Below are positions 207 through 36,134 of a stretch of DNA of 64,000 bases, piece after piece. Both the position numbers and the translations under genes were made by a program. The stretch's first letter is position 1; each line of letters starts with the position of its first letter. The notes beneath the pieces were generated by a model, which saw only the letters and a program-made list of their open reading frames with translations, made no database searches and was not told the DNA's origin. The DNA is from an uncultured bacterium (GTDB lineage: Bacteria; Oederibacteriota; PGYV01; Palsa-1178). Location of the stretch: contig CALAOR010000064.1 in NCBI GenBank assembly GCA_937889595.1, positions 1 to 64,000 on the forward strand. The letters run 5' to 3'.

Positions 207-308
207 CGTGACTGGTGCTGATAAGATTTTGCCTCAGGATTTTGCGCTTGAATTATAAAGGGGTATCGCGCAAAGGCCTGAGTCAAAATCTTATCAGCGC
301 CAGTCACG
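207..308. repeat. Hairpin element A copy 1: 32-nt arms (2 mismatches) around a 38-nt core
   Basis: cgtgactggtgctgataagattttgcctcagg / cctgagtcaaaatcttatcagcgccagtcacg flank attttgcgcttgaattataaaggggtatcgcgcaaagg. Confidence 0.93.
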
Positions 309-3450: not shown

Positions 3451-3505
3451 ATACTGCCGGACATTATAAAGAATTCCATGGTTTTATATGGTTTTCCAAC
3501 AGTAT
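3451..3505. repeat. Short inverted-repeat-bounded element C copy 1
   Basis: atactgccgga...tccaacagtat ends; interior ataaagaattccatggttttatatggttttccaacagt matches 55329-55366 at 35/38. Confidence 0.75.
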
Positions 3506-3528
3506 CATTTAAAATGAGGAGGCGGCAA

Positions 3529-33932: not shown

Positions 33933-35909
33933 ATGAAAACAAACAGGATGTTGGTTACGGGTGTCATGTTGTTTTTTACGGCTTGTTTTTGGCTGTATTT
34001 TTCAGGCATGGCGCCTTCATATAATTCGGACGACAGCCCTGAAACTTCAGCGGCTTACTATACCCTCGGGATACAGCATCCGCCCGGTTATCCGCTGGCT
34101 ACGCTTATAGGGAAAATATTCATGAATGTGCAGTTGGGTTCGCCGGCATTCAGGGCAAACCTTATGGCCGTATTTTTCAGCGTGTTTGCGGGTTTCATGA
34201 TATTCATGCTCGTTTACTTCTGCATAACATCCCGGGACAAAAAAACAGGCAACTTTACATCTGCTGCGGTATCCGCGGCGGCAGCCTCATTTTATCTATT
34301 TTCAGGATCGGCATGGCTGCAGGGAAGCATAGGAAAGGGCGGCCTATACGCCTTAAACTCCTTTCTGCTGGCCTCCTGTCTTTACGCTCTGTTCAGGATG
34401 AATGAAGGAAAAAAATATCTTTACCTTTTTGCCGTTATATACGGGATTTCCATGGGCAACCACTGGACCAGCATGATTGTCATATCTCCGGCGGTTTTGT
34501 ACTATCTGTTTATGGAAAGAAAGAATTTAACCCTGAAGCGTTTATTAACGGCCGCGGCATTTTTTATTCTCGGGGCCTCGGTTTATATTTACGTGCCATT
34601 AAGGAACCTTACGGGTCCGGCTTACTGCTGGGGGGACGTAAAAAGCATCAAGGATTTTATATGGCTTATTTCCCGCGCCCAGTATTCGGGAATAGAAGTA
34701 AAACACAGCCTCGTAGATACGCTTAATCTGCTGGGTTACTATGTTAAGAACCTTTTCCAGTCCGAGTTTCCGTGGGGAACGGCCATACTGATATTGCCCG
34801 GCATGGTAATGCTGGCATTAAAACAGGCGAAAAAAGGCATTATGCTGATTGCCGCGTATTTGTTTATCATGGTAAGTGTAGCGTCTTTCGCCACCCCGCC
34901 TCCCAAAACCGAATGGCTTATCAAACCATACCTTGTTTCCACAAATATTTTTGCCGCGGTTTTCAGCGCTTTTTCAATTTACTATATAGCGGCCATGTTT
35001 AAAAACACCATGGTAAAAAGAACCCTCGCCTTATTTTTGGCTGCGGTTGTCACTGTTATTTTAATCGCCGCCAATAGGCCCGGTTACGGGCGTTATTTTA
35101 TCGGCTATGATTACGGCAATAACATGGTGAAATCGATAAAACCCGGTTCAATAATATTTCTTGAGGGCGACATGAACGTCGGAGCCATGATTTATAAATC
35201 CCTCGTTGAAAAGCAGAGGTTTGTTCCGGTAATACCCGTTGTGTCGCTGTACGGCTGGTATCAGGAACAGGTTACGCGGAATTTCGGGAGTTTAATCAAT
35301 ATGCCGCCGCCCTTAAAAGACTTAAAACAGTATATGGGCTCCATAATGGCGGCAAATCCGGGCCGCGACTTTTACTACTCCAATATTTTCACAAAACAGT
35401 TCGTGGACGAGGGGGCGCTGAAACCCGAGGGAATCGTCATAAAGATCATGCGTAATAACATGAGAAGCGTTATATCGGATTATTTATTCAATATTTATTC
35501 ATACAGGGGAATGGTGGAAGACAAGGTAAAGAGCGATGAATTCACCCACAGGCTTGTAATAGAAAATTACGCGATGAGTTTTTTTAACCTGGCCGACGTG
35601 CTGAGAAATACGGGTAACAATAAAATAGCGGCCAAATATTACGAGCGGGGCCTGATTTTCTACAAAAACCACGGGGCCTATATAAATGCGGGCCTGGCGT
35701 GTTACTATGCGGGCGAATTAGACAAAGCCGAAGCCATGTGGCAGGAAGCCTTAAACACGGACCCGAAAGATTCAGTATCGTATTCCAACATGGCCTTCAT
35801 TTATCTGAACAAAAAAGACATACCCAAAGCAAAAGAATTCATACAAAAAGCCCTGCAGCTTGACCCGAACAACCAGACCGCTCTGTATCTGCAGAAGAAC
35901 ATTAAATGA
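33933..35909 (+). CDS. DUF2723-family membrane protein with C-terminal TPR repeats
   Basis: DSPETSAAYYTLGIQHPPGYPLATLIGKIF; C-terminal ALNTDPKDSVSYSNMAFIYLNKKDIPKAKEFIQKALQLDPNN. Confidence 0.87.
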   Translation: MKTNRMLVTGVMLFFTACFWLYFSGMAPSYNSDDSPETSAAYYTLGIQHPPGYPLATLIGKIFMNVQLGSPAFRANLMAVFFSVFAGFMIFMLVYFCITSRDKKTGNFTSAAVSAAAASFYLFSGSAWLQGSIGKGGLYALNSFLLASCLYALFRMNEGKKYLYLFAVIYGISMGNHWTSMIVISPAVLYYLFMERKNLTLKRLLTAAAFFILGASVYIYVPLRNLTGPAYCWGDVKSIKDFIWLISRAQYSGIEVKHSLVDTLNLLGYYVKNLFQSEFPWGTAILILPGMVMLALKQAKKGIMLIAAYLFIMVSVASFATPPPKTEWLIKPYLVSTNIFAAVFSAFSIYYIAAMFKNTMVKRTLALFLAAVVTVILIAANRPGYGRYFIGYDYGNNMVKSIKPGSIIFLEGDMNVGAMIYKSLVEKQRFVPVIPVVSLYGWYQEQVTRNFGSLINMPPPLKDLKQYMGSIMAANPGRDFYYSNIFTKQFVDEGALKPEGIVIKIMRNNMRSVISDYLFNIYSYRGMVEDKVKSDEFTHRLVIENYAMSFFNLADVLRNTGNNKIAAKYYERGLIFYKNHGAYINAGLACYYAGELDKAEAMWQEALNTDPKDSVSYSNMAFIYLNKKDIPKAKEFIQKALQLDPNNQTALYLQKNIK

Positions 35910-35932
35910 TACTGCCGGAAAAGCATGATAGG

Positions 35933-36036
35933 TCGTGTCCGGTACGAACTTTAATTTTTCTATGGATTTTGCGCTTATATTATATAGGGGAATCGCGCAA
36001 AGGCCATAGAAAAATTATAATTCGTACCGGACACGA
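35933..36036. repeat. Hairpin element A copy 2: 33-nt arms (2 mismatches) around a 38-nt core
   Basis: tcgtgtccggtacgaactttaatttttctatgg / ccatagaaaaattataattcgtaccggacacga flank attttgcgcttatattatataggggaatcgcgcaaagg. Confidence 0.93.
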
Positions 36037-36041
36037 TAAAG

Positions 36042-36100
36042 AATATCTGCCTGCATTTGTAGGGGCAGCATATCATGCTGCCCGCCTTTTGCGGGCTTTT
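36042..36100. repeat. Dispersed hairpin repeat B copy 2
   Basis: 56/59 identical to 2773-2831. Confidence 0.92.
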
Positions 36101-36134
36101 CCGGTAGTATCATTCGTTTTAGGGTGAGGAGGAA

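Follow-up and report, generated by a model that had tools for sequence, protein, structure and literature searches.

We find that the two hairpins encoded in the 64,000-nt stretch of DNA analysed here (the window) are the interiors of a miniature inverted-repeat transposable element (MITE) of ~172 bp, a mobile element of ordinary kind whose interior is unusual. The way in which the arms of its central palindrome differ between copies suggests that the palindrome is kept paired mainly by template-switch correction, a reading that we consider probable though well short of secure. The features of the window on which the analysis builds are the following (TIR, terminal inverted repeat).

206–309, + strand: hairpin of copy 1, arm type A, with outer arms at 206–238 and 277–309 and the apex between them; covariance model score 100.6 bits
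239–276, + strand: apex of copy 1 (38 nt, conserved), comprising the inner stem and the loop
35933–36036, + strand: hairpin of copy 2, arm type B, with outer arms at 35933–35965 and 36004–36036; covariance model score 100.5 bits
35966–36003, + strand: conserved 38-nt apex of copy 2, 34/38 identity with copy 1
177–351, + strand: copy 1, complete hairpin MITE of 175 bp from TIR to TIR, with a TIR pair, an exact 5-bp target-site duplication and matching ends
172–176: target-site duplication ATTTA, left of copy 1
352–356: target-site duplication ATTTA, right of copy 1
35908–36111, + strand: copy 2, hairpin MITE in which part of a GGGCGGGCAGC-type MITE has taken the place of the right end; flanks TAAAT and ATTCG, no matching duplication
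3489–3509, + strand: right end of a hairpin-less derivative of the hairpin MITE (locus L136), whose left part starts from near 3451

Both hairpins were found where the first-pass annotation had located them, and our value for the identity of the 38-nt core agrees with the one it gave; its interval, however, covers only the middle of a larger unit, and the enclosing MITE had been missed. Copies 1 and 2 each fold into a single stem (~33 outer and 7 inner pairs) that has an internal mismatch and ends in a loop of ~20 nt, at −66.5 kcal/mol for copy 1 (z −13.9) and −56.7 kcal/mol for copy 2 (z −12.1), and no shuffled sequence folded equally well. The arms of the two copies had been described as unrelated. 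They are homologous instead, since the arm types are joined by intermediates in other copies, and the 5′ arms align ungapped over 33 nt with 19 identities (counted by hand). A separate origin of the two window hairpins is excluded by the ends and apex that they have in common and by the intermediates, and a chance origin of the core is excluded by its 15 copies in the 3.42-Mb genome of the window, compared with 0 for the reversed control pattern. A scan of the window for known RNA families with Rfam 15 at the gathering score returned only one tRNA. No intrinsic terminator was found at either copy on either strand in a scan that covers loops of 3–8 nt, no T run follows either stem, and a scan of both copies ruled out a strong promoter.

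The mobile element is recognised by its ends. The terminal inverted repeat GAKACTGTCSGAAAA (~15 bp) stands at both of them, and outside the hairpin the copies have GAKACTGTCSGAAAAGnCCTTATGATAGG in common as the left end, with either TAAAGAATTTCATGGTTTTATAGGGTTTTCCGRCAGTATC or a second module, AAGGAAACACGTCATATTAATGAGGGTTTTCCG, as the right end. Identical 5-mers flank 28 of the 79 TIR pairs, compared with 1.2 expected from cross-pairing, and exact flanking repeats of 4 or 6 bp are absent among these 79 pairs; for the hairpin copies alone, 5-bp duplications are present in 17/28 and lengths are mostly 170–175 bp. The hairpin MITE is short, multicopy and without coding capacity. Copy 2 is a mosaic with a right end from another MITE type, and the orthologous interval of the sister species (G001) lacks this copy. 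One mechanism considered in the first-pass annotation, a fold recognised by a recombinase, receives no direct support, and the TIRs and 5-bp duplications explain the mobility. The only DDE_Tnp_1 gene found in the genome belongs to its one copy of the IS1182 family, whose ends, GAGTCTGTCTCAAAAGTCC, are MITE-like (16/19 positions shared with the MITE end GAGACTGTCCGAAAAGTCC, not identical), but whose flanking repeat is 4 bp (CAAG) rather than 5 bp long.

Several other repeats lie in or near these elements. At locus L142 (G000:C32, near 22000), a palindrome resembling GGGGGCAAGCCCCC is interrupted by an IS1182 element flanked on either side by CAAG. Positions 1–100 of the window contain three to four head-to-tail mini-palindromes, CATGTACCTGAGCTACTGCGAATGGTACATG, a unit that many hairpin MITEs also carry as an insertion in their left end. 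Nested in the loop of ~10 copies, at a constant place, is a second palindrome, CATGAACCACTCGCTGGGCTCGGGTTCATGG, which adds a second stem (carriers L001, L006, L007, L009, L011, L013, L103, L204 and L250), and L103 and L247 contain a further loop insertion of ~70 nt (GCGGAGCTTGATATGAGAGG...). A second MITE family, which has the core GGGCGGGCAGCATGATATGCTGCCCCTACAA and shares the TIRs of the hairpin MITE, occurs at 2788–2818 and 36057–36087 of the window and at 45 places in the genome, and is absent from the same-genus genome.

The samples are draft metagenome assemblies of two related uncultured bacteria. The only same-genus genome (records of the genus are labelled candidate division FCPU426) contains 13 copies of the core pattern, and with a relaxed core or a definition based on the arms only, the family comprises ~58 hairpins in the two genomes, with five arm/apex types; one copy, L009, combines two arm types as a chimera. 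The core was not found in the two same-family genomes, where the covariance model also recognised none of the tested loci, nor in the viral contigs searched for it. A wider spread is rejected: in a genome collection of 264 Gb, the short core has matches in 16 records from other phyla, which is approximately the chance expectation for a 17-base pattern, and the covariance model recognises none of them. Collapsed or mis-joined repeats in metagenome assemblies could mimic palindromes, and several copies do lie at contig ends, with NN at the apex in a few copies of G001. We nevertheless consider such an artefact exceedingly improbable, given that the family is present in two independent assemblies, where exact 5-bp duplications mark distinct sites, and that most copies lie well inside contigs.

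The ~58 copies and their covarying arms give strong support to the proposal of the first-pass annotation that the structure persists as the sequence changes. Covariation was evaluated for 44 distinct sequences and 36 pairs, with shuffled partners and slid partners as controls. Changes on both sides occur in 25 of the 36 pairs (15.7 shuffled, at most 12 slid) and in 217 double-change cells (59.8 shuffled, at most 23 slid); 95.8% of the cells are paired, compared with 81.3% for shuffled and 30–46.5% for slid partners, and the covariation score is 0.386 vs 0.128 and at most 0.075, respectively. The two arms of one copy mismatch at 1.7 positions on average, whereas a 5′ arm compared with the 3′ arm of a different member of its subfamily shows 6.2 differing positions. 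Even a one-base difference in the length of the outer stem is concerted, with a gap in both arms in 31 cases, in neither arm in 13, and no mixed case. The annotation had stated that its reading would fail if there were no more copies, if the arms of further copies did not covary, or if a known family matched; what we find is more copies, covarying arms and no Rfam match.

One explanation for such covariation is a selected RNA hairpin that is transcribed in the sense direction in mRNAs, between or after genes; selection for its folded form (acting, for example, in processing or protection of the 3′ end) would maintain pairing in the arms and conservation of the apex. The covarying pairs and the very stable folds are consistent with it, but the detailed pattern of changes argues against it, and we regard this explanation as possible rather than likely. 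Among nearest-neighbour copies with ≤4 differing stem positions there are 16 Watson-Crick compensatory doubles, compared with 0.38 expected under independent mutation. Transversions make up 7 of these 16 doubles, while 22 of the 24 single changes are transitions (Fisher p 0.018), counts that are not fully independent because the copies are related by descent. Compensatory transversions appear without an intermediate among near-identical copies of the B subfamily, T-A to A-T in L004 and C-G to G-C in L002. G-U commonly accounts for a tenth of the pairs in RNA stems; here G-T pairs occupy 12/1578 cells (0.8%) and are rarer than A-C mismatches (41/1578; 10 and 20, respectively, without the three most mismatched pairs), which indicates that wobble is not tolerated as it is in an RNA stem.

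Template switching, in contrast, is a mutational process that perfects quasipalindromes in E. coli in a strand-biased manner (PMC7202029), is reported to favour transversions in bacteria (PMC8604942) and can maintain RNA hairpins (PMC8794818). In view of this literature, the excess of doubles, the transversions among them and the scarcity of G-U favour arm-to-arm copying over RNA selection. Palindrome regeneration by template switching is also the one of the three mechanisms listed in the first-pass annotation that best fits the doubles and the concerted arms. Two observations count on the other side. Intermolecular template switching can invert the spacer, and no inverted apex or loop was seen (54 copies score as forward, and inspection by eye gives the same for the remaining 4), so that intramolecular switching fits better; and the scarcity of transversional single mismatches could also result from selection against them.

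The course of events that we envisage begins with what appears to be a non-autonomous DDE-type MITE of ~172 bp, whose central palindrome has two arms of 32–33 bp that enclose a conserved inner stem and loop. As its anatomy shows, the element was spread by a transposase that recognises the ~15-bp TIRs and makes 5-bp duplications. Following a transposition, or between two of them, a mutation in one arm would frequently be copied to the other during replication, by a polymerase template switch within the extruded hairpin (quasipalindrome correction), and the arm sequence would thereby drift while pairing is restored, as the pattern of changes suggests. An additional constraint probably acts on the apex and on the element's orientation, and the hairpin would then have a strand-specific effect as well, either at the fork during replication or in sense transcripts.

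This additional constraint concerns two properties that template-switch correction alone leaves unexplained, namely conservation of the apex and nearly fixed orientation. Divergence within subfamilies is 0–0.075 per site in the inner stem and loop and ~0.19 in the outer stem (A and D), and the apex is conserved across arm types and in both species, as a selected RNA hairpin would also have it. Constraint on the apex is likely, but we judge it to be moderate because the values for the subterminal ends (~0.15–0.34 per site within subfamilies) are inflated by module exchange.

Orientation was assessed from the gene contexts of the copies, that is, from fetched genome stretches with our own codon-scored gene calls. 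Among the 59 copies with flanks, those between tandem genes are 40 sense and 1 antisense, the latter with a sense tRNA gene on its right; 9 copies lie between convergent and 4 between divergent genes, the rest lie at contig ends, and none is inside a gene. The bias is present in both species and in the youngest subfamily. In the second MITE family described above, which shares the TIRs, has a comparable right end and served as control, the bias is weak, at 20:9 sense (Fisher p 0.001 against 40:1; p 0.00015 in a further Fisher test), and the transposon ends are therefore disfavoured as the cause. Local GC skew is positive along 57 of 58 hairpin copies, even where the flanking genes differ in direction, compared with 20/29 for the control family. 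The sense bias and the absence from genes support the selected RNA hairpin, but orientation is confounded with replication, as one strand carries ~90% of a contig's genes (65:8 at control loci, 43:2 in the window). Since genes and GC skew are almost fully co-oriented, transcription and replication are inseparable here as causes. In the window itself, 43 of the 45 called genes are on the + strand and the GC skew is +0.073.

The agreement with GC skew, together with Watson-Crick pairing at the DNA level, could alternatively indicate a DNA hairpin that acts at transposition or at the fork, where a transposase or host factor would bind the extruded single-strand hairpin and decide its orientation relative to the fork. 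We consider this quite improbable: MITEs that have the same TIRs but lack this hairpin transpose too (45 copies), a hairpin-less derivative exists, and the 5-bp duplications indicate an ordinary cut-and-paste enzyme and not a single-strand one. Apex conservation and orientation nevertheless lend some probability to a selected RNA or a strand-specific hairpin. In the broader form of this idea, the payload of the mobile element would be a strand-specific hairpin with a functional apex, and the hairpin, not the ends, would set the orientation along transcription and replication while the arms drift jointly; this is a tentative proposal, possible but less likely than not.

When base changes compensate each other, this is usually read as proof that an RNA structure is under selection. 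In this family, strong covariation is accompanied by sudden double transversions and almost no G-U, which points to coupling at the level of mutation. The family thus offers a natural test set for template-switch maintenance as opposed to RNA selection, and a warning for covariation tests that are run on repeats. The nearly fixed orientation is a separate puzzle and a testable one.

Among known systems, REP and BIME elements resemble the hairpin MITEs in being dispersed intergenic palindromes. REPs are not known to carry TIRs or target duplications. They are also shorter, 20–40 bp according to PMC3733652, vs ~172 bp for the hairpin MITEs. Quasipalindrome correction (PMC7202029, PMC8794818, PMC8604942) is alike in that the imperfect arms of a repeat are made identical in one event, with compensatory doubles and with transversions favoured in bacteria; it is known from single loci, rRNA genes and yeast genes, whereas here it would involve dozens of dispersed copies without loop inversion. 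Prokaryotic MITEs, such as QMITE of Coxiella, Chunjie of Geobacter, Correia and ERIC (reviewed in PMC10969869, in whose text the word "compensatory" does not occur), are alike in their shortness, TIRs, short target duplications, intergenic location, lack of coding capacity and strongly folding RNA. The hairpin MITE differs from these other MITEs in that its variable palindrome is separate from the TIRs, its arms change in concert and its orientation is nearly fixed.
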